A DNA stretch of 30,073 nucleotides from a virus. Under the pieces are notes generated by a model. It was not told the origin of the DNA, did no database searches, and saw only the letters and a program-made list of their open reading frames with translations. Location: the IMG/VR virus record IMGVR_UViG_3300025647_000180, positions 1 to 30,073 of that record, one strand, 5' to 3'. Below, piece after piece: positions 2,963-29,956 of this stretch (positions are counted from its first letter, which is position 1; each line of letters begins with the position of its first letter). The translations under genes and the position numbers were made by a program.

Positions 2963-3346
2963 ATGGGACACAAATATCAACCTATTCCTCGTAAAGGGGA
3001 TATTCACGAAAAAGCTTGGGGACACGAGCTTTGGATTGCAAACCACGAACTATATTGTGGTAAACTTCTTGTATTTGAAAAAGGCAAGAAATTCTCAATG
3101 CACTATCATTTGATTAAAGAAGAATCTTGGTATGTATCTGAAGGAGAATTTGAATATAGTTGGATTGATACTGAAAAAGCTGAGGTTCAATCAACTGTGA
3201 TTCGTCAAGGAGATGTCGTAGATTTGGAGGTTGGACAACCACACCAATTGAGGGCACTTACTCAAGGTGCTACAATTTTTGAGGTATCTACTAAACATTA
3301 TGAAGAAGATAGTTATAGAGTATTCCCAGGAGATTCACAACAATGA
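2963..3346 (+). CDS. Cupin, mannose-6-phosphate-isomerase-like
   Basis: 127 aa, a single-domain cupin. Motif 1 is GKKFSMHYHLIKEESWYVSEG (about residues 41-61), with likely metal ligands H47, H49 and E53/E54. Motif 2 is QGDVVDLEVGQPHQL (82-96) with H94. The start WGHELWIANHELYCGKLL and the end EVSTKHYEEDSYRVFPGDSQ are typical of the small cupins annotated as mannose-6-phosphate-isomerase-like or D-lyxose-isomerase-like, including phage copies. Such a protein could alter a sugar used in glycan or nucleotide-sugar metabolism; the actual substrate is not visible. Its stop overlaps the next start (ATGA), so the P-loop protein is translationally coupled to it. Confidence 0.75.
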   Translation: MGHKYQPIPRKGDIHEKAWGHELWIANHELYCGKLLVFEKGKKFSMHYHLIKEESWYVSEGEFEYSWIDTEKAEVQSTVIRQGDVVDLEVGQPHQLRALTQGATIFEVSTKHYEEDSYRVFPGDSQQ

Positions 3347-3873
3347 AAATAGGATTATGTGGTACAATGAGTGTAGGTAAAACTACACTTGTAAATGCTT
3401 TAAAAGACTTACCTGAATTTAAGGATTATACAACTAGAACAGAACGTTCTAAGGAACTAATGGCGATAGGTATTCCATTAAATACTGATTCAACATTTTT
3501 AGGCCAAACAGTTTTTATGGCTGAGAGAGCAAGTGAGTTACTAATTGACAACATTATTACAGATCGTACTATTATTGATGTAATGGCTTTTGCCCAAGCC
3601 TCCAAATCAATAGATTGGACAGATAAAGAAGCATTTTACCAATATGCTATTCGTTTGATTAGAGAATACGATTACATCTTTTATGTCTCACCAGAAGGTG
3701 TAGAAATTGAGGATAATGGTATTAGAGAAACTAATGCTGATTATAGAGAAGAAATTGACATTATTATTCGTCATATTCTAAGCCAACAAAAACATAGAAT
3801 CAAAAACTACGGCATTCTTGAAGGACCTACCGAACAACGTATTGAACAATTGAAATTTCAACTAGGGTTATAA
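3343..3873 (+). CDS. P-loop ATPase/kinase-like protein (AAA_28, NadR-kinase type)
   Basis: 176 aa. GTMSVGKTT at residues 7-15 is a Walker A motif with K13. IITDRTIIDV near residue 70 fits the D-R-(T/S) element of nucleoside or ribosylnicotinamide kinase-like P-loop proteins. The size and the KIGLCGTMSVGKTTL start match the AAA_28 family, whose phage members are common and mostly uncharacterised. A small-molecule kinase role is likelier than a mechanical ATPase because no second ATPase subdomain is present. It overlaps the cupin gene by four bases, and its stop TAA forms the first bases of a candidate promoter motif. Confidence 0.7.
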   Translation: MKIGLCGTMSVGKTTLVNALKDLPEFKDYTTRTERSKELMAIGIPLNTDSTFLGQTVFMAERASELLIDNIITDRTIIDVMAFAQASKSIDWTDKEAFYQYAIRLIREYDYIFYVSPEGVEIEDNGIRETNADYREEIDIIIRHILSQQKHRIKNYGILEGPTEQRIEQLKFQLGL

Positions 3874-19053: not shown

Positions 19054-20763
19054 GTGGCTCAAATTAATATTGCACAAACCGGAACCTCAGGCATCGAATC
19101 CCCACAAGCAGGGGTTGTTGCTATCTTCTCCAATAGCGCTGATAGCGGTAAATTATATTATAAATTCTCAGATGGCTCTACAGCCCCGGTAGATACAGGA
19201 GGTACCTCAGGTGGTGGTACCGCTTTAACTGTAACTGATGGTTCAACTACAGTCAATAACGTAGATACAATTACATTCTCTGGAGCAGCTGTAACCGATG
19301 ATGGCTCAGGTGATGTAACTGTTACCGTTAGTGGTGGTTCAGGATCATCAGGTACTTCAGGTGATGGTACTTCTGGTACTTCTGGTAGTGGTACTTCAGG
19401 TACATCAGGAACTGGATCCGGAGAATCAGGCACAGACGGTACTTCAGGTACAGCTGGTGAAGATGGTTTAGACGGTACTTCAGGTACTTCAGGTACAGGT
19501 TCAGGTCAATCTGGCACAAATGGTACCTCAGGTACACAAGGTGAATCAGGTACAGATGGTACTTCAGGTACAACCGGTTCTTCCGGTACTTCAGGTACTG
19601 ATGGTTCTTCAGGTACTTCAGGAGAAAACGGAACATCTGGTACAGATGGCTCTTCAGGTACTTCAGGTACTAATGGCTCTTCAGGTACTTCAGGTGAACA
19701 AGGCCCACAGGGTGAAGCCGGTACTTCAGGTACTAATGGCTCTTCAGGTACTTCAGGTGAACAAGGCCCACAGGGTGAAGCCGGTACTTCAGGTACTAAT
19801 GGTGAAGCTGGTACTTCAGGTACTGACGGTACTACTTTTGTAACTGGTACTTCAGGTACTGACGGTGAATCAGGTACTTCAGGTACAGCAGGTGAACAAG
19901 GTCCACAGGGTGAAGCTGGTACTTCAGGTACTGATGGTACTACTCTTATAGTGGGAACTTCAGGTACTGATGGTGACTCTGGTACTTCAGGTACTGCTGG
20001 TGATTCTGGAACAAGTGGAACAGCTGGCTCAGGTACTTCAGGTACTTCAGGACAACAAGGTCCTCAAGGTGATCCTGGTACTCCAGGTTCATCAGGTACT
20101 TCAGGTGCTGCAGGTGCCCCAGGTTCATCAGGTACTTCAGGTGCTGCAGGTGCTTCAGGTTCAGCTGGAACATCAGGTACATCAGGTGCTGGAGGCGGAG
20201 CTGCTTTAACAGTTAGAGATGGTTCAACAACAGTTTCAAATGTTGAAGATATTGTATTTAGTGGTGGTACTGTAACAACAGGTACTTCAGGTGTTGCTCA
20301 AGTAACTATCTCCGGAGGTGGAGGTGGTGGTACAGCATATGCTGTAAGATTTGATTACCCTGATGATAACAACTTAGTATCCGCTGGTGCTACTTCAGCC
20401 CAAATTACAACATCTCCATTTAGTAGTAATACGGTAAACGTATCTATTAATGCAACCAATGATGTTGTATTTGACTTCCCATCTGAAACCGGACCTCCTA
20501 CTAATGTATTTTTATACATGTATAATGGTCCTAATGATGAATATAAAATTTCAACATTCGGTTTAGGTAGTGTTGGATATTCTGTAGGTCAAGGATTTAC
20601 TTCTACGATTTCAAGTAAAATAGCAACTAACGATTTCTTTACAGCTTTTAGCAATAATGAAATTAAATTAGATCTCTCAGTAGGTAATTATGGTGGTTCT
20701 AGAAAAACTGTACCACCACCAATCGTAAACATTCACTGTTACGTTGTGTTTATGTTTGTGTAA
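19054..20763 (+). CDS. Collagen-like fibre protein
   Basis: 569 aa, starting at GTG, the only sensible start after the promoter motif. Residues 1-93 are a globular N-terminal part. About 94-382 are Gly-X-Y repeats, mainly GTS with inserts such as GEQGPQGEAGTSG that are true collagen-like triplets. About 384-569 form a globular C-terminal head (FDYPDDNNLVSAGATSAQIT). A module ALTVTDGSTTVNNVDTITFS at 57-76 recurs as ALTVRDGSTTVSNVEDIVFS at 384-403, so the repeat shaft is bracketed by two copies of the same domain. Expected to be a trimeric fibre shaft with a receptor-binding or trimerisation end. A terminator follows. Confidence 0.85.
   Translation: MAQINIAQTGTSGIESPQAGVVAIFSNSADSGKLYYKFSDGSTAPVDTGGTSGGGTALTVTDGSTTVNNVDTITFSGAAVTDDGSGDVTVTVSGGSGSSGTSGDGTSGTSGSGTSGTSGTGSGESGTDGTSGTAGEDGLDGTSGTSGTGSGQSGTNGTSGTQGESGTDGTSGTTGSSGTSGTDGSSGTSGENGTSGTDGSSGTSGTNGSSGTSGEQGPQGEAGTSGTNGSSGTSGEQGPQGEAGTSGTNGEAGTSGTDGTTFVTGTSGTDGESGTSGTAGEQGPQGEAGTSGTDGTTLIVGTSGTDGDSGTSGTAGDSGTSGTAGSGTSGTSGQQGPQGDPGTPGSSGTSGAAGAPGSSGTSGAAGASGSAGTSGTSGAGGGAALTVRDGSTTVSNVEDIVFSGGTVTTGTSGVAQVTISGGGGGGTAYAVRFDYPDDNNLVSAGATSAQITTSPFSSNTVNVSINATNDVVFDFPSETGPPTNVFLYMYNGPNDEYKISTFGLGSVGYSVGQGFTSTISSKIATNDFFTAFSNNEIKLDLSVGNYGGSRKTVPPPIVNIHCYVVFMFV
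19666..19791 (+). repeat. Two perfect 63-bp tandem repeats in the collagen-like gene
   Basis: Units 19666-19728 and 19729-19791 are identical base for base and encode GTNGSSGTSGEQGPQGEAGTS; a third partial unit starts at 19792. Identity at third codon positions points to a recent duplication, in contrast to the codon-scrambled repeats of the next gene. Confidence 0.9.
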
Positions 20764-20785
20764 AATTTCTACATAGAATTTTAAG

Positions 20786-20811
20786 AGCCCCTCATTTGAG
20801 GGGCTTTTTTT
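20786..20811 (+). terminator. Rho-independent terminator
   Basis: An 8-bp stem AGCCCCTC/GAGGGGCT (20786-20793 with 20798-20805), ATTT loop, and T run to 20811. It ends the neck/collagen-like unit. Confidence 0.93.
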
Positions 20812-20820
20812 AATATTTAT
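20811..20820 (+). promoter_or_regulatory. Candidate late promoter, TAATATTTAT
   Basis: Starts on the last T of the preceding terminator and lies 72 bases before the ATG of the giant fibre gene. The last two consensus bases (AA) are CG here. Confidence 0.5.
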
Positions 20821-20853
20821 CGCTGACTAGTCGTTTGGAAAGTGAAAAACAAC

Positions 20854-20892: not shown

Positions 20893-23800
20893 ATGGCCGA
20901 ATATAATCCGGAACAACCCGCGTTAACTCTGTATGGTACTATACAAGCTAACGCTGTAGGTAAAGATAAATACGGGATAAGTGATGAAACTGGTTTAGGA
21001 CCCAATGGTGCTGACAAGTATATTTCATATGATATCATAATTTCTAACATTTCAGCTCAACCTGTTGGTGATGCTAGTGTTAGAGACTCTTCAGGTTTAC
21101 TAGTAGGAGGTTCATACGATGGTATTGACATTAAAGTAGGAGACTGGGTTTCTGACGTAGAAGGTCTTCGTACCTTTAAAATTACAGCTATTTCCGAAAA
21201 AACTAATAGCTACATATCATGTTCAGTAGAAGACGTAGGTATGAACGTTGCTCGTACTCGAGCAGATAGAGTTAACTCCTACTCTAGTGGTCAAGCTGTT
21301 GTTGTATTTGAAACTAGTGATAATAACCAACCTTTATTAGCCCCAAACCAATTTGGCAATTTAGGTGATGCTCGAGCCGTTGATGGTATCCAAACCTATT
21401 TTAATGTTTACGAACCTTTCCAAAGATTTACTCTTTACCCTGATATTACGGGTAGTGTATCAATTGGTGATTTAGTAACAATTACAGGCTCAGTAGGTGG
21501 ATCTCCTGTTACCCCCTATCGATTAATCCCAGCTGAAGAAGGAGATACGGTAATTGGGGTTGTTTCCGACATTTACGGTGGAAATAACGTTAATGTTCGC
21601 CCTTACAACAAAATCATAACCAATTTTTCAGCACCTGAATTATTAACTTCAGGCTCAATTGGTTCAACATGGTATTTAAGTGGTAGTGGTGCTTATACTA
21701 CAAGTAGTGATTTAGGAGGGGATCCTAAATTCTTCCAATTATCACTTCCAATTAAAGGAGCAGTAACAGGTAGTATTGACGGAACTGATTTTGATGAAAC
21801 TCAATATAACCTTGTAATTAATAATGTTGAAGTTATTGCTCAAAATGCAGGAGGTAGTACTTTAACCTTATCACAAATCGTAAGCGCAGTTAATACTTAC
21901 GAAAATCAAACATACGTTTCTGCTTCTATTTATCAAACAGGAGGAGGAAACGCTACTATAACTACTGGAGATAGTGGAGCTAGCTTAGCAGACCCTGCAT
22001 TCTTAGGAATGTATTTAGATTTAAACCCAGGAAGCCCAGGTTCATATCCTTCAGCTCCAGGTGAATTTACTATTACAGCAGGTGCTACTTCTTTTAATGT
22101 AAAACCTACTACAGCCGACGTTTCTCAGTATACTTATCCTGCAGCTTCAATTGATCAAATTAAATTAGATATTGAAGCAGCAGCTTTATCAGCGGGTGTT
22201 AGCATTACAGTAACTAAAAATAGTGCTACAAGTTTAACTATTGAAGAAACTACAGGTGCTAACTTAACACTTACCCAAGTTGCACAAGATGCATTTGGTC
22301 AAAACCTTTTTGGAGGTGGATCAGCTTTAGGTTGGCCTGCAGGAACTGTATCTCCACCCGCATTAGAACAATATTTAAGTTTAGAAAGACTCGATGGTGG
22401 TGATATTTTACTACAAGGTAGTTGGTTAACTTCTCCTAGTGGTTCCGGAATATATAGCGTATCAGGTACCCCACCATTCCTTTTAATGGTCGAAGCCGCC
22501 GGTGGTGGTGAAACCGGTACCTCAGGAACCTCTTCAACTGCAGGTACTTCGGGTACTGGCATTTCGGGCACAGCAGGTACTTCAGGAACTGGAATTACAG
22601 GTACAGCTGGTACTTCAGGTACAACAATAGTAGGTACAGCCGGTACTTCTGGTTTAGAAGGTACCTCAGGTACACAAGGTACTTCTGGTACTTCTCCTGG
22701 TGATGGTACAGCAGGTACTTCATTAGGTTCTGGTACTTCAGGTACAGCTGGTACAGCCGGTACTTCTGGTTCAGGAGGAACGGGCACTTCAGGTACTTCA
22801 GTTAATGGTACAGGTGGTACTTCAGGTACTTCAGCAGATACCGGAACTCATGGTACTTCAGGTACAGCTGCTGATTCAGGTACTTCAGGTACTTCGTTTG
22901 ATTCAGGTACAGCAGGTACTGCTGGTACTTCAGGTACAAATGGAAATGATGGTACTTCAGGTACTACAGGCTTAGATGGTACTTCAGGAACTAATGGTGA
23001 ATCTGGTACAACGGGTACAGCAGGTACTTCAGGTACTTCAGGTGAAGGAACAGGAACATCAGGTACAAACGGTACTGCTGGTACAGCTGGTACTTCAGGC
23101 GATTCTGCTTCAGCGGGTACAGCAGGTACTTCAGGAAATTCAGGTACTACAGGTACAGACGGTACTTCAGGTACTGCTGGTGATTCAGGTACTAGTGGTA
23201 CAGCTAGTGATAATGGTACTTCAGGTACATCTACAAATTCAGGAACTGTAGGTACAACTGGTACTTCAGGTACAGGAGGTATTGATGGCACATCAGGTAC
23301 TGCTGGTGGTAATGGTACATCAGGTACTTCAGATACTTCAGGCACAACAGGTTCAGCTGGTACCTCAGGTACTTCAGGCGATAATGAATCTGCAACTTCA
23401 GGTACAGCAGGTGAATCAGGTACTTCAGGTACATCTGGAGGAAGCTCAACTTCAGGTACAACGGGATCATCAGGTACTTCAGGTACTGATGGTGAATCTG
23501 GAACATCTGGTACAGCAGGTGATTCAGGTACTTCAGGAACTAGTGATACTTCAGGTACAACAGGTAATAACGGAACTTCAGGTACTACAGGTCTAGACGG
23601 CACTTCAGGTACAGCCGGAGAATCAGGTACAGCAGGTACTTCCGATACTTCAGGTACAACAGGTAGTGCTGGTACTTCTGGTACTTCAGGTGATAACGAA
23701 AGCGCTACTTCAGGTACAGCAGGTGAGTCAGGTACTTCAGGTACATCCGGAGGAAGTTCTACTTCAGGAACAGCAGGTACAGGTGGTACTTCTGGAACTG

Positions 23801-26800
23801 ATGGGGAATCAGGTACTACTGGTACAGCTGGTAGTTCAGGTACTTCAGGTACAAGCGATACTTCAGGTACTTCGGGTAATAATGGTACTTCAGGTACAGA
23901 CGGTAATAATGGTACTTCAGGTACAGTAGGTGCTTCTGGCACTTCAGGTACTTCAGATACAAGTGGTACAACAGGTTCAGCTGGTACCTCAGGTACTTCA
24001 GGCGATAATGAAAGCGCTACTTCTGGTACTGCTGGTGAATCAGGAACTTCAGGAACTTCAGGTGCTTCAAGCACTTCAGGTACAGCAGGTTCTTCAGGAA
24101 CATCTGGTTCAGATGGTACATCTGCTACAGCTGGTACAGCAGGTAGCTCAGGTACTTCAGATACTTCAGGTACAACTGGTTCAGCAGGTACTTCAGGTAC
24201 TACAGGTTTAGACGGCACTTCAGGTACAGTAGGTGAAAGCGGAACTTCAGGTACTTCTGACACTTCAGGTACAACTGGTTCAGCAGGTACTTCAGGTACT
24301 TCGGGCGATAACGAATCAGCTACTTCAGGTACACAAGGTGAATCAGGAACTTCAGGTACTTCAGGTGCTTCAAGCACTTCGGGTACAGCAGGCTCTTCAG
24401 GTACTTCAGGTTCAGATGGTACTTCAGCAACTGCAGGTACTGCAGGTTCAAGCGGTACAAGCGACACTTCCGGTACAACAGGTACTTCAGGTAGTTCAGG
24501 TACAACTGGAGACGATGGTACTTCAGGTACAGTAGGTGAAAGTGGAACTTCAGGAACTAGTGATACTTCAGGTACAACAGGTAGTGCTGGTACTTCAGGT
24601 ACTTCAGGTGATAACGAAAGTGCTACCTCAGGTACAGGTGGTATATCTGGAACTTCAGGAACATCAGGTGCTTCAAGCACTTCAGGCACAGCAGGTTCAA
24701 GCGGTACTTCAGGTTCAGATGGTACTTCAGCCACAGCTGGTACTGCTGGTTCATCAGGTACTTCAGATACATCAGGAACAACAGGTTCAGCCGGTACATC
24801 TGGTACTACAGGAGATGATGGTACTTCAGGTACAGTAGGTGAAAGTGGAACTTCAGGTACCTCAGATACTTCAGGTACAACTGGTTCAGCAGGTACTTCT
24901 GGTACCTCAGGCGATAACGAAAGTGCTACCTCAGGTACAGGTGGTGTGTCAGGTACTTCAGGAACTTCAGGTGCTTCTAGTACTTCAGGTACAGCTGGTT
25001 CTTCAGGAACTTCGGGTTCAGATGGTACTTCAGCAACTGCAGGTACTGCAGGTAGTTCAGGTACTAGTGATACATCAGGTACTTCAGGTACAGTAGGTAG
25101 TTCTGGTACAACTGGTAACGATGGTACTTCAGGTACAGTAGGAGAATCAGGTACATCAGGTACTTCAGATACAAGTGGTACTACAGGTTCAGCTGGTACC
25201 TCAGGTACAAGTGGTGATAACGAGTCAGCTACTTCAGGTACACAAGGTGTAAGCGGAACTTCAGGAACATCAGGTGCTTCAAGCACTTCAGGCACAGCAG
25301 GTAGTTCAGGAACCTCAGGTTCAGATGGTACATCTGCTACTGCTGGTACTGCGGGTTCGTCTGGAACAAGTGATACATCAGGTACTTCAGGAACCGCTGG
25401 TTCTTCAGGTACTACAGGTTTAGATGGCACTTCAGGTACTGTAGGTGAATCTGGAACTTCAGGAACTTCAGATACTTCAGGTACTACAGGTTCAGCAGGT
25501 ACTTCTGGTACATCAGGCGACAATGAATCAGCCACTTCAGGTACAGCTGGTGTAAGTGGTACTTCAGGTACTTCAGGTGCTTCAAGCACTTCAGGTACAG
25601 CAGGTAGTTCAGGAACAAGCGGTTCAGATGGTACTTCAGCAACAGCTGGTACTGCGGGTTCAAGCGGTACTTCAGATACTTCAGGTACTTCAGGAACAGC
25701 TGGCTCTTCAGGTACTACAGGAGACGACGGTACTTCAGGTACAGTTGGTGAATCTGGAACTTCAGGTACAAGTGATACTTCGGGCACTACAGGTTCAGCT
25801 GGTACTTCTGGTACTTCGGGTGCTACTGATGTTGGAACCTCTGGTACTGCTGGTGTAAGTAGTACTTCAGGTACATCAGGTGCTTCTAGTACTTCAGGTA
25901 CAGCAGGTTCTTCAGGTACAAGCGGTTCAGACGGTACTTCAGCTACTGCTGGTACTGCGGGTTCAAGCGGTACTTCAGATACTTCAGGTACTTCAGGTAC
26001 AAATGGTAGTTCAGGTACAACAGGTAACGATGGAACTTCTGGTACAGTAGGTGAAAGCGGTACTTCAGGTACAAGTGATACATCAGGTACAACAGGTTCA
26101 GCTGGTACTTCAGGTACTTCAGGTGATAACGAAAGTGCTACCTCAGGTACACAAGGTGTAAGCGGAACTTCAGGTACTTCAGGTGCTTCAAGCACTTCAG
26201 GAACAGCAGGTTCATCAGGAACTTCAGGTTCAAATGGTACTTCAGCTACAGCGGGTACTGCAGGTTCTAGTGGTACAAGTGATACTTCAGGTACAATGGG
26301 TACTGCTGGTTCTTCAGGTACTACAGGAGACGACGGTACTTCAGGTACAGTTGGTGAATCTGGAACTTCAGGAACAAGTGATACTTCGGGCACCACAGGT
26401 TCAGCAGGTACAAGCGGTACCTCAGGTGCTACTAATATAGGAACTTCAGGTACAGCTGGTATAAGCAGTACTTCAGGAACTTCAGGTGCTTCAAGCACTT
26501 CAGGAACAGCTGGTTCATCTGGTACTTCAGGCTCAGATGGTACTTCAGCAACTGCTGGTACTGCAGGTTCTAGTGGTACAAGTGATACCTCAGGTACATC
26601 TGGTACTTCAGGTTCAACAGGAACCTCAGGCTCGGATGGTACTTCATCAACAGCAGGTACAGCAGGTAGTTCAGGTACAGCAGGTACTTCAGATACTTCA
26701 GGTACTACAGGTAGTGCAGGTACTTCAGGTACAAGTGGTGATAATGCTAGCTCCACTTCAGGTACACAAGGTGTAAGCGGAACTTCAGGAACTTCGGGTG

Positions 26801-28881
26801 CTTCTAGCACTTCGGGTACAGCAGGTTCTTCAGGAACAAGTGGTTCAAACGGAACTTCAGGCACAGCTGGTACAGCAGGCTCAAGTGGTACATCAGATAC
26901 ATCAGGAACAACAGGTACAAATGGTAGCTCAGGTACAACAGGTAATGACGGAACTTCGGGTACTGTAGGTACTGCTGGTTCTTCAGGTACATCTGATACT
27001 TCAGGTACAACAGGTTCAGCAGGTACTTCAGGTACAAGTGGTGACAACGAGTCAGCTACTTCAGGTACTGCGGGTGTAAGTGGTACTTCAGGTACTTCAG
27101 GTGCTTCTAGTACTTCAGGTACAGCAGGTTCTTCAGGTACTTCAGGTTCAAATGGTACTTCTGGAACAGCTGGTACAGCAGGTTCAAGTGGTACATCAGA
27201 TACTTCAGGAACAAGTGGAACTTCAGGTTCAGCAGGAACCTCAGGCTCGGATGGTACTTCATCAACAGCAGGTACAGCAGGTAGTTCAGGTACAGCAGGT
27301 ACTTCAGATACTTCAGGTACAACCGGTTCAGCTGGTACTTCAGGTACTTCTGGAGACAATGCTAGTGCTACTTCAGGTACACAAGGTGTAAGCGGAACTT
27401 CAGGAACTTCAGGTGCTTCAAGTACTTCAGGAACAGCTGGTTCTTCAGGAACAAGTGGTTCAAACGGAACTTCAGGCACAGCAGGTACTGCGGGTTCTAG
27501 TGGTACTTCAGATACTTCAGGAACTTCGGGTTCTACAGGTACAAGTGGTACTACCGGAGATAGTAAAACTTCAGGTACAGTAGGTACAGCAGGTTCAAGC
27601 GGTACTTCAGATACTTCGGGTACAACAGGTTCAGCCGGTACCTCAGGTACCTCAGGTGATAATGCAAGTGCTACTTCAGGTACTGCTGGTGTAAGTGGAA
27701 CTTCAGGAACATCAGGCGCTTCAAGTACTTCAGGAACAACCGGTTCTTCAGGTACAAGCGGCTCAAATGGTACTGCAGGTTCTAGTGGTACATCAGGTGC
27801 ATCAAATACATCTGCTACTTCAGGTTCTTCAGGAACAAGCGGTTCATCTGGTACAGCGGGTTCAGCCGGTACAGGTGGTACTTCAGGTGGAAGTGGTGCA
27901 GCTAATAGTTCAGGTACTTCATCTACTTCAGGTACAGCTGGTTCATCTGGTACAACAGGATCTGCAGGTACTTCAGGTTCAGCCGGTACTAGTAACTCAT
28001 CAGGTACTTCAATTTCAAGTGGTACCTCAGGTACTACAGGTACAGCAGGTACAACAGGTAATGCTGGTACTTCAGGAGACTCTACTGGATCTGGTACTTC
28101 AGGTACATCTGCAACATCTGGTTCAAGTGGTACTTCAGGATCATCTGGTACAAGTGGCTCATCTGGAACCTCAGGTTCACAAGGTACAGCAGGTACTTCA
28201 CCTGATAGTGGTACTTCTGGTACATCAAGCTCTTCAGGTACTAGTGGTTCAAACGGCACTTCAGGAAGTTCAGGTACAAGTGGTTCAAACGGCACTTCAG
28301 GAAGTTCAGGTACAAGTGGTTCAAGCGGTACTTCAGGTTCATCTGGTACAAGTGGTTCAAGCGGTACTTCAGGAAGTTCAGGTACAAGTGGTTCAGCAGG
28401 TACATCTGGTGTAGGGTTAATATTTAATGATAATAACAATTATGTATTAACTGCTACAGGAACCTCAGGTGTAATCCAAGGTGAACAAAACCTCCAGTTC
28501 AATGGTAGTTACTTAACTCTAAACCAAGGAGTTAGAATGTACTATAAAACAGCATCAATTGCTGCTAATACTACAACTACTTTATTAACAGGATCTCAAG
28601 CTGTAAACGTTCAACAAGGCTTTAATATAGACTACATGATCTACGATTCAGGTTTAGCAAATGGATTTAGACAAGGTCAATTTATGGCAACTACAGATGA
28701 TGCTTCTATCGGTACAGGTGCTGTAATGTACGCTGAAACTTCAACAATAGATACTAACCAAGCTGCTAACGTAGAATTGATAGCTATAAACACTTCAGAT
28801 AAGTTAACAGTTCAAGCAGTAAATACTAATGCAATTGAAGATTTTACAATCCAGATGTATATTAGAGAATTTAACGCTTAA
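20893..28881 (+). CDS. Giant Gly-Thr-Ser repeat fibre protein (2662 aa)
   Basis: Three parts. Residues 1-536 are a beta-rich globular N-terminus (GVVSDIYGGNNVNVRPYNK, SISIGDL-type turns), presumably the virion attachment part. Residues 537-2506 are about 1970 residues of Gly-X-Y triplets dominated by GTS, GTA, GSS and GSD, almost free of Pro. Residues 2507-2662 are a globular C-terminus (VRMYYKTASIAANTTTTLLT, then FTIQMYIREFNA), a likely trimerisation or receptor-binding tip. Within the repeat part a higher-order unit of 101 or 104 residues recurs 15 times, each carrying an 8-residue Gly-phase break such as GDNESATS. Lack of Pro leaves open whether it forms a collagen triple helix or polyglycine-II-type bundles. 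It is transcribed alone between two terminators. Confidence 0.88.
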   Translation: MAEYNPEQPALTLYGTIQANAVGKDKYGISDETGLGPNGADKYISYDIIISNISAQPVGDASVRDSSGLLVGGSYDGIDIKVGDWVSDVEGLRTFKITAISEKTNSYISCSVEDVGMNVARTRADRVNSYSSGQAVVVFETSDNNQPLLAPNQFGNLGDARAVDGIQTYFNVYEPFQRFTLYPDITGSVSIGDLVTITGSVGGSPVTPYRLIPAEEGDTVIGVVSDIYGGNNVNVRPYNKIITNFSAPELLTSGSIGSTWYLSGSGAYTTSSDLGGDPKFFQLSLPIKGAVTGSIDGTDFDETQYNLVINNVEVIAQNAGGSTLTLSQIVSAVNTYENQTYVSASIYQTGGGNATITTGDSGASLADPAFLGMYLDLNPGSPGSYPSAPGEFTITAGATSFNVKPTTADVSQYTYPAASIDQIKLDIEAAALSAGVSITVTKNSATSLTIEETTGANLTLTQVAQDAFGQNLFGGGSALGWPAGTVSPPALEQYLSLERLDGGDILLQGSWLTSPSGSGIYSVSGTPPFLLMVEAAGGGETGTSGTSSTAGTSGTGISGTAGTSGTGITGTAGTSGTTIVGTAGTSGLEGTSGTQGTSGTSPGDGTAGTSLGSGTSGTAGTAGTSGSGGTGTSGTSVNGTGGTSGTSADTGTHGTSGTAADSGTSGTSFDSGTAGTAGTSGTNGNDGTSGTTGLDGTSGTNGESGTTGTAGTSGTSGEGTGTSGTNGTAGTAGTSGDSASAGTAGTSGNSGTTGTDGTSGTAGDSGTSGTASDNGTSGTSTNSGTVGTTGTSGTGGIDGTSGTAGGNGTSGTSDTSGTTGSAGTSGTSGDNESATSGTAGESGTSGTSGGSSTSGTTGSSGTSGTDGESGTSGTAGDSGTSGTSDTSGTTGNNGTSGTTGLDGTSGTAGESGTAGTSDTSGTTGSAGTSGTSGDNESATSGTAGESGTSGTSGGSSTSGTAGTGGTSGTDGESGTTGTAGSSGTSGTSDTSGTSGNNGTSGTDGNNGTSGTVGASGTSGTSDTSGTTGSAGTSGTSGDNESATSGTAGESGTSGTSGASSTSGTAGSSGTSGSDGTSATAGTAGSSGTSDTSGTTGSAGTSGTTGLDGTSGTVGESGTSGTSDTSGTTGSAGTSGTSGDNESATSGTQGESGTSGTSGASSTSGTAGSSGTSGSDGTSATAGTAGSSGTSDTSGTTGTSGSSGTTGDDGTSGTVGESGTSGTSDTSGTTGSAGTSGTSGDNESATSGTGGISGTSGTSGASSTSGTAGSSGTSGSDGTSATAGTAGSSGTSDTSGTTGSAGTSGTTGDDGTSGTVGESGTSGTSDTSGTTGSAGTSGTSGDNESATSGTGGVSGTSGTSGASSTSGTAGSSGTSGSDGTSATAGTAGSSGTSDTSGTSGTVGSSGTTGNDGTSGTVGESGTSGTSDTSGTTGSAGTSGTSGDNESATSGTQGVSGTSGTSGASSTSGTAGSSGTSGSDGTSATAGTAGSSGTSDTSGTSGTAGSSGTTGLDGTSGTVGESGTSGTSDTSGTTGSAGTSGTSGDNESATSGTAGVSGTSGTSGASSTSGTAGSSGTSGSDGTSATAGTAGSSGTSDTSGTSGTAGSSGTTGDDGTSGTVGESGTSGTSDTSGTTGSAGTSGTSGATDVGTSGTAGVSSTSGTSGASSTSGTAGSSGTSGSDGTSATAGTAGSSGTSDTSGTSGTNGSSGTTGNDGTSGTVGESGTSGTSDTSGTTGSAGTSGTSGDNESATSGTQGVSGTSGTSGASSTSGTAGSSGTSGSNGTSATAGTAGSSGTSDTSGTMGTAGSSGTTGDDGTSGTVGESGTSGTSDTSGTTGSAGTSGTSGATNIGTSGTAGISSTSGTSGASSTSGTAGSSGTSGSDGTSATAGTAGSSGTSDTSGTSGTSGSTGTSGSDGTSSTAGTAGSSGTAGTSDTSGTTGSAGTSGTSGDNASSTSGTQGVSGTSGTSGASSTSGTAGSSGTSGSNGTSGTAGTAGSSGTSDTSGTTGTNGSSGTTGNDGTSGTVGTAGSSGTSDTSGTTGSAGTSGTSGDNESATSGTAGVSGTSGTSGASSTSGTAGSSGTSGSNGTSGTAGTAGSSGTSDTSGTSGTSGSAGTSGSDGTSSTAGTAGSSGTAGTSDTSGTTGSAGTSGTSGDNASATSGTQGVSGTSGTSGASSTSGTAGSSGTSGSNGTSGTAGTAGSSGTSDTSGTSGSTGTSGTTGDSKTSGTVGTAGSSGTSDTSGTTGSAGTSGTSGDNASATSGTAGVSGTSGTSGASSTSGTTGSSGTSGSNGTAGSSGTSGASNTSATSGSSGTSGSSGTAGSAGTGGTSGGSGAANSSGTSSTSGTAGSSGTTGSAGTSGSAGTSNSSGTSISSGTSGTTGTAGTTGNAGTSGDSTGSGTSGTSATSGSSGTSGSSGTSGSSGTSGSQGTAGTSPDSGTSGTSSSSGTSGSNGTSGSSGTSGSNGTSGSSGTSGSSGTSGSSGTSGSSGTSGSSGTSGSAGTSGVGLIFNDNNNYVLTATGTSGVIQGEQNLQFNGSYLTLNQGVRMYYKTASIAANTTTTLLTGSQAVNVQQGFNIDYMIYDSGLANGFRQGQFMATTDDASIGTGAVMYAETSTIDTNQAANVELIAINTSDKLTVQAVNTNAIEDFTIQMYIREFNA
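23329..27780 (+). repeat. Higher-order repeat array, 15 units of 303/312 bp
   Basis: Taking the codon after the Gly that opens each phase break as anchor, units start at 23380, 23692, 24004, 24307, 24610, 24913, 25216, 25519, 25822, 26125, 26428, 26740, 27043, 27355 and 27658. Steps are 312, 312, then 303 eight times, then 312, 303, 312, 303. The 9-base difference is one Gly-X-Y triplet plus zero frame change. Most units read DNESATSG at the anchor, three read DNASATSG or DNASSTSG, and two (25822, 26428) read ATDVGTSG or ATNIGTSG. Codons for the same residues differ between units. Confidence 0.92.
28246..28400 (+). repeat. 36-bp minisatellite at the end of the Gly-X-Y region
   Basis: GGTTCA followed by AACGGC or AGCGGT starts at 28246, 28282, 28318 and 28354, with a degenerate fifth start at 28390, a period of exactly 36 bp (12 residues, GSNGTSGSSGTS). 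The first two units are identical at the base level, so this end of the gene looks recently expanded. Confidence 0.85.
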
Positions 28882-28902: not shown

Positions 28903-28934
28903 AGAGGTGCCCTTTACATGGGCACTTCTTTTTT
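28903..28934 (+). terminator. Rho-independent terminator
   Basis: AGAGGTGCCC (28903-28912) pairs with GGGCACTTCT (28920-28929) with one G-U pair and a 7-base loop, followed by T5 to 28934. It ends the giant fibre transcript. Confidence 0.88.
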
Positions 28935-28966: not shown

Positions 28967-29956
28967 ATGGCTAATGAATTTAAAGTAAGAAACGGACTTA
29001 TCGTTTCAGGATCATCGTGGTTTAATGAAGACATGTTTGCTGTCAATCTTCCTTCAGAAGCCAGCCCAAACTATTACATAACTTGGAGACAATCAGATGG
29101 TAGATTTGAAGTTTCTCCTGCAGGAGCTTCAGGAGCAGTTAATGCTATCGGTTGTTGGGATTATTCAGGATATATCGTTACTCCTACTAGTGGTGAATTT
29201 ACTCTTAGAGGAAATGGTACTAGTATATTAGATTCTGGTGTATCTGTTCTTCAATTTAACAAATTTGATAATAATGGAGTTGATCAAAGTTCATTTTTTA
29301 ACAACATAGGAGTTGGTTCAGTACTAACTCTTACTACAGGAGGAGTAACTATTAAATACGCCGTTACAGGATTTAATATTCAAGGAAATGTTTATTGGTT
29401 TTGGATTAATCTCCTTTCAGGAGGACCCTCAGCTACATTATCTGTAGGAACAGAAGTTTGTTTAACATTAACAGCAGTAACTGCAGGAGGGGGTTCATCT
29501 ACAGGCACTACTTCAGGCACAAGTGGTGGTGGTGGTGGAACTATATCATCATGTAATTGTATTACATTTAACATGGATGATAACTTTTCAGATGTCAATG
29601 GTAATTCAAAAACAGCTATTTTTAATATCTCACCAGGTTGGGCTCAACCTTTTGGTCAAATTGGATCATCAACTATAGGAATGTACGCTTCTCAAGATCA
29701 AGTAGCAGGATGTTATATGTCTACAGTATATTTTGGGATAGTAGCAGGTGCCACTGTAGGAAGTCCTAAATTATTTGAACTTTCATATTTAAACTTAAAA
29801 ACTAATTTTTTAATTAGTATAGCTTTAGGTACTTCTCCTGGAGGTGGTAATTTAGGTACCACAGCCAGTACTATTTATTTAGATATGCAATACGTGTCTG
29901 GGGATACCGGATATACAATCCCTACTGGAGCTTCTTTTACTCTTTGTAAAATATAA
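28967..29956 (+). CDS. Tail fibre protein with N-terminal attachment tag
   Basis: 329 aa. The N-terminus MANEFKVRNGLIVSGSSWF is the 'EF-V-NGL-VSGS' tag common at the start of T4-like phage fibre proteins. Residues 20-170 are beta-rich (YITWRQSDGRFEVSPAG). A flexible Gly/Ser/Thr linker (GGGSSTGTTSGTSGGGGG, about 174-191) joins a C-terminal domain that contains SCNCITFNMDDNF and ends in GASFTLCKI. The linker uses the same GTSG vocabulary as the giant neighbour. It is followed by a second gene with nearly the same N-terminus, so the two are tandem paralogues or alternative fibre subunits. Receptor unknown. Confidence 0.75.
   Translation: MANEFKVRNGLIVSGSSWFNEDMFAVNLPSEASPNYYITWRQSDGRFEVSPAGASGAVNAIGCWDYSGYIVTPTSGEFTLRGNGTSILDSGVSVLQFNKFDNNGVDQSSFFNNIGVGSVLTLTTGGVTIKYAVTGFNIQGNVYWFWINLLSGGPSATLSVGTEVCLTLTAVTAGGGSSTGTTSGTSGGGGGTISSCNCITFNMDDNFSDVNGNSKTAIFNISPGWAQPFGQIGSSTIGMYASQDQVAGCYMSTVYFGIVAGATVGSPKLFELSYLNLKTNFLISIALGTSPGGGNLGTTASTIYLDMQYVSGDTGYTIPTGASFTLCKI

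Follow-up and report, generated by a model that had tools for sequence, protein, structure and literature searches.

A virus record of 30,073 bases in IMG/VR, referred to here in its entirety as the window, contains one gene in which glycine, threonine, and serine are repeated over nearly two thousand residues, almost without proline. The locus raises the question of what such a protein is, whether its length is maintained, and whether it is peculiar to this phage. On balance, the gene probably encodes a virion fibre of a far-T4-type phage, composed of a docking domain, a long trimeric collagen-like shaft, and a C-terminal tip.

The fibre gene and its setting

The gene occupies positions 20893..28881 of the plus strand and encodes 2662 amino acids from an ATG start. 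Its frame is open, its N-terminal domain is conserved in four other IMG/VR contigs, and terminator-like hairpins flank it on the plus strand, one lying between the two fibre genes of the window (20783..20808) and one 3' of the gene itself (28903..28929); the presence of a hairpin on either side suggests that the gene forms its own transcription unit. Within it, a 536-aa N-terminal domain (20893..22500, plus strand), probably a virion-attachment domain, is followed by a Gly-X-Y shaft (22507..28413, plus strand; residues 539-2507) and by a C-terminal domain of about 157 aa (28408..28881, plus strand), a probable tip or trimerisation domain.

The surrounding genes are, in order, terminase, portal, prohead protease, scaffold-like protein, major capsid protein, PhoH-like protein, head-tail adaptor, and fibre genes, an arrangement that, judged by sequence, marks a T4-type structural region; the names scaffold-like and PhoH-like come from reading the translations and from the equivalent arrangement in relatives that carry annotation. 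For the major capsid protein, the nearest counterparts are those of Flavobacterium phage immuto (53%) and Microcystis phage Mel-JY01 (47%). The fibre gene thus lies downstream of the capsid and head-tail connector genes, and it does so in L003 and L005 as well, a location in keeping with a virion fibre.

A more direct link to the virion is provided by the N-terminal domain, which matches the EST35_0303 protein of Pseudomonas phage PA5oct both by tblastn (E=1e-6) and by profile comparison (E=6e-16, whereas 0 of 900 shuffled sequences were reported). According to its annotation, EST35_0303 was recorded as structural by ESI-MS/MS, and its neighbour, EST35_0302, has tail-fibre matches. As far as sequence homology can indicate, this places a domain like the N-terminus of the fibre in virions, with tail, baseplate, and neck being possible alike. 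The homology covers most of the domain in EST35_0303 and part of it in SCTP-2 gp16 and Phosso 204; however, identity is about 23-27%, and all three proteins are without the repeat shaft. The N-terminal domain would probably dock the fibre to the virion, in the tail or neck region, and the C-terminal domain would form an exchangeable tip, probably in contact with the host surface. AlphaFold gave no usable model of either the N-terminal domain (five sequences, pLDDT 38.5) or the C-terminal domain (single sequence, pLDDT 37.9), and for the latter no match was found in cultured phages, in IMG/VR by a pattern method, or among PDB sequences.

The four relatives, L002-L005, were found in IMG/VR with the N-terminal domain, which is about 59-65% identical across them (62% in L003 and 59% in L005). 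Beyond this shared domain the proteins vary, in keeping with a virion fibre. L003 has a similar distal part, its C-terminal domain being 46% identical over 96 aa, and L005 has a different C-terminal domain. L004 has retained the N-terminal domain but continues into a different, non-repetitive C-terminal part without a shaft. In L002, the contig end cuts the gene off.

Several features of the neighbourhood may be recorded here. Upstream lies a second, shorter collagen-like fibre gene (19054..20763, plus strand; 569 aa, GTG start), with a Pfam Collagen match of 3.5e-31 and PHROG tail fibre matches; its array is stricter, with Gly at 85 of 87 Gly positions, and contains some Pro. The motif TATTTATA (usually AATATTTATA) occurs at window positions 1064, 3874, 6821, 8693, 10170, 15958, 19029, and 29969. 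All eight occurrences have a single orientation and are intergenic, upstream of plus-strand genes, compared with 3.7 expected on both strands. The motif is also present in L002-L005 and in immuto and is possibly a late promoter; a near-match to AATATTTATA, AATATTTATC, precedes the long fibre gene (20812..20821, plus strand). Downstream, two successive genes at 28967 and about 30012 have nearly identical starts coding for MANEFKVRNGL, suggestive of fibre-type proteins duplicated in tandem. Ahead of the structural genes, 1288-2676 and 3343-3873 encode proteins resembling a pyridine nucleotide-disulphide oxidoreductase and an AAA-type P-loop protein.

The Gly-Thr-Ser array and its 101-residue unit

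Translated in the frame of the gene, positions 22501-28410 give 1970 residues, among them 573 Gly, 533 Ser, 499 Thr, 154 Ala, 85 Asp, 45 Asn, 29 Glu, and 25 Val, with two Pro and a single Lys. Register analysis gives the Gly-X-Y region a length of about 1969 residues; it is 29% Gly, 27% Ser, 25% Thr, 8% Ala, and 0.1% Pro, and carries a net charge of -113. Successive Gly residues lie exactly 3 apart in 449 cases; 500 shuffled versions gave 83 on average and never more than 104. The initial annotation had pointed to a huge, nearly Pro-free Gly-Thr-Ser repeat in one fibre gene, and these figures bear it out. Thr fills X in 445 triplets and Y in only 52; Ser fills Y in 406. The shaft also matches the Pfam Collagen family (PF01391) in 33 stretches with E=1e-158 and 515.7 bits, the curated cut-off being 27.2. 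Sequence matches in the PDB are to animal collagens, and these reflect the Gly periodicity rather than demonstrated homology. The same periodicity accounts for a match to chain X of PDB entries 8zxl / 9ius (spindlefibril/axialfibril), a 780-residue collagen-like (GAPGSQGAPGLQ)n protein.

The periodicity is imperfect, and its imperfections are themselves regular. Gly occupies 556 of 646 Gly positions (86%), the remaining 14% being mainly Asp, Ser, or Ala, and the register shifts once per about 101 residues. Both features belong to a higher-order repeat (23344..27621, plus strand), which consists of 15 anchor intervals, mostly 101 residues (303 bp) long; each unit has its conserved Gly interruptions and a single shift of register. 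Of the 27 Gly-Gly spacings in the unit consensus, 22 are 3, four are 6, where a Gly is replaced in register by D, S, or A, and one is 8, which is the register shift; these replacements, together with the shift, explain the 14% non-Gly at the Gly positions of the shaft. When the units of the window are compared column by column, Gly is the most conserved position (entropy 0.03, versus 0.23 for X and 0.27 for Y).

The same unit, with an almost identical consensus, recurs in L003 (19 intervals) and L005 (20 intervals). Nearly all intervals in the three phages span 101-110 residues; in the window, one 104-residue stretch was divided in two by the anchor chosen. In IMG/VR, a DNA pattern written for interruptions of the GDNES type matched only the L003 and L005 contigs. 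This repeat anatomy, common to three phages, is new here.

Fold of the shaft

Several collagen-like phage proteins are available for comparison. Those of E. coli prophages are trimers with a triple-helical domain, in which the rise is about 0.29 nm per residue (PMC3368898), and FibU of phage 80alpha is a collagen-like fibre protein (PMC7048315). Like FibU and EPclA/EPclB of E. coli O157 prophages, the present protein has a Gly-X-Y domain beside non-collagen domains and is encoded among phage structural genes. However, the collagen domain of EPclA has 111 residues and is rich in Pro and charge (PMC3368898), whereas the window's fibre has about 1969, only 0.1% Pro, one Lys, a 101-residue repeat, and regular Gly interruptions. 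Among tabulated viral and bacterial collagens, Pro makes up 22-31% of X; at Y, Arg and Lys together reach 38% in viral collagens, and Thr reaches 48% in those of Gram-positive bacteria (PMC3368898). Bacillus BclA and other Gram-positive collagen-like proteins also combine a Thr-rich Gly-X-Y region with end domains, but their Thr is mostly at Y and their Pro at X (PMC3368898, Table 4; PMC8968730), whereas here Thr is at X, Ser is at Y, and Pro is virtually missing.

Closer counterparts are found among uncultured phages. An IMG/VR scan for (Gly-Thr-Ser)4 codons returned at least 120 stretches, and among the matches listed, 95 loci (L003 and L005 included) are arrays with at least 100 in-register residues. 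Like the window's shaft, these GTS/GSS arrays, and that of Mel-JY01, are poor in Pro, with Thr or Ser at X and Ser at Y, and some are as long or longer: among the matches listed, 28 of the 95 reach 1000 residues and three reach 1969. Less than 1% Pro and less than 1% Lys+Arg are found in 73 of the listed loci, although the GTS search pattern biases such composition figures towards GTS. They differ from the window's interrupted array in that most keep a strict register; residues other than Gly take up more than 5% of the Gly positions in just 13 of the 95 listed. The longest among the matches listed, L074 on a 270-kb contig, holds one register throughout its 3057 residues, and 0.2% of its Gly positions are non-Gly. 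The suggestion that the appendage would be exceptional is therefore not supported, since many uncultured phages have comparable arrays and at least one has a longer one. GTS repeats are also numerous in bacterial genomes, across many phyla. A tblastn search of the repeat against cultured phages returned nothing, probably because of low-complexity masking, which makes this absence uninformative, and no relevant description of GTS repeats in phages was found in the literature searched.

In the favoured model, three chains would come together through the Gly-X-Y array as a thin collagen-like shaft some 0.55 micrometre in length; a fully extended triple helix is computed at about 563 nm, taking 0.286 nm per residue. 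The 101-residue repeats would make up semi-rigid segments of about 29 nm, able to flex where the conserved Gly interruptions lie, and shaft length would probably evolve as whole 303-bp units are duplicated or lost. The strict conservation of Gly in this class of arrays argues for a fold that requires Gly at each third residue, and strictly regular relatives such as L074 suggest selection for it. Against a triple-helical shaft are the scarcity of Pro and of Lys/Arg, the 14% non-Gly, the register shift in each unit, and the fact that GTS is a weak triple-helix triplet in host-guest peptide work. With two Pro and one Lys in 1969 residues, the shaft lacks the imino acids and X-Y charge pairs that would stabilise the helix of a collagen-like protein, so that neither imino-acid nor salt-bridge stabilisation is available to it. 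Whether the shaft is a triple helix or another fold is thus not settled.

The main rival is a disordered polar tether or brush, perhaps glycosylated, belonging to the same fibre. Such a tether would account for the missing Pro, the lack of a hydrophobic core, the net charge, the Gly interruptions, and the register shifts, and the Ser/Thr-rich composition would suit O-glycosylation. A disordered chain, however, has no need to keep Gly more strictly than X or Y, or to do so over more than 3000 residues, as in L074. We consider the tether unlikely, yet the most serious of the alternatives. If it were correct, the phage could reach its host from afar, at several times the length of its tail.

A second possibility, which we regard as improbable, is that the repeat folds into polyglycine-II helices bundled into a compact or thick structure, as in S16-type adhesins. 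Gly-X-X without Pro is suitable for such helices, and the conserved interruptions could be turns. Salmonella phage S16 gp38 is also Gly-rich and acts in host recognition. The gp38 adhesin, in which Gly-rich motifs are accompanied by variable loops, nevertheless shows no detected sequence relation to the long regular arrays considered here, and no polyglycine-II adhesin was named among the Pfam, PHROG, or PDB sequence matches, those from PHROG concerning the end domains and the shorter fibre rather than the long repeat. In addition, the runs between interruptions in the shaft are uneven in length, and the arrays of relatives can run for hundreds to thousands of residues without a break, leaving no turns. 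A bundle had been proposed in the initial annotation, and because relatives keep Gly at every third residue without a turn, the necessary fold-back appears to fit poorly.

Returning to the triple-helical shaft, a broader and more tentative proposal can be made, to which we would give somewhat less than even weight: that these arrays represent a widespread class of phage fibres, 0.5-0.9 micrometre long, in which GTS/GSS triplets form a triple helix without Pro, hydroxyproline, or charge pairs, built in the present case from kinked segments of 101 residues. If so, collagen-like rods would be possible without proline or salt bridges, a previously undescribed way to stabilise, or extend, a triple helix that would bear on collagen stability and the design of biomaterials.

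Maintenance of the frame and the coding strand

Frameshifts in independent phages would have indicated that the long frame is not maintained. In L003 and L005, the frame runs uninterrupted across about 2320 and about 2420 repeat residues, respectively, and continues to the contig end, and to this extent the check raised by the initial annotation came out in favour of maintenance. The exception is L012 (3-4386), a related contig, also among the listed arrays, whose GTS fibre gene has a different N-terminus and is split by an apparent frameshift; apparently, not all database copies of such genes are intact. It might be argued from L012, from the absence of the repeat in L004, and from the reading of copy number from one metagenomic contig, which leaves the exact number of units uncertain, that the great length reflects a decaying or artefactual expansion rather than a maintained structure. 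This is very improbable, given the more than 2300 open repeat residues with the same 101-residue unit in both L003 and L005 and the constraint on nonsynonymous change among unit copies (pS 0.40-0.46 versus pN 0.12-0.17). Furthermore, exact repeats within the array reach 88 bp at most, and no 101-mer occurs more than once, which makes a gross short-read assembly artefact unlikely.

The pattern of substitution also indicates which strand is read. Column entropy is lowest in the sense frame (0.29 bits), higher in the open antisense frame (0.57), and about 1.23-1.34 in the other frames. Moreover, TCN and AGY codons occur together in 19 of the 23 columns where Ser is invariant, a change that is silent in sense and alters the residue in antisense. 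Together with the excess of pS over pN, these observations imply that the sense protein is the selected product. The idea that the true gene is instead the 1863-aa Pro-Glu-Val-rich ORF on the opposite strand (22848..28439, minus strand), which stays open over the greater part of the array in the window and over much of it in L003 and L005, and whose equivalent strand is annotated in Mel-JY01, can hardly be entertained and was rejected on the entropy and Ser-codon evidence; moreover, it is the sense frame that links two non-repeat domains. The ORF is better regarded as a by-product, its codons sharing the degenerate positions of the sense codons and its openness following, we reason, from the rarity of the sense Tyr, Gln, and His codons needed for antisense stops.

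An antisense reading of this kind stands in the annotation of a cultured relative. In Mel-JY01 (L257 1-3052, PP395634.1), the plus strand carries a GTS collagen-like frame of 1016 residues, Arg among them, over which the record annotates two minus-strand Pro-Glu-Val hypothetical proteins; this array is annotated on the wrong strand, and such calling may hide this class in databases. Arrays of this class are frequent in environmental phages, and the cultured Mel-JY01 makes a laboratory test possible.
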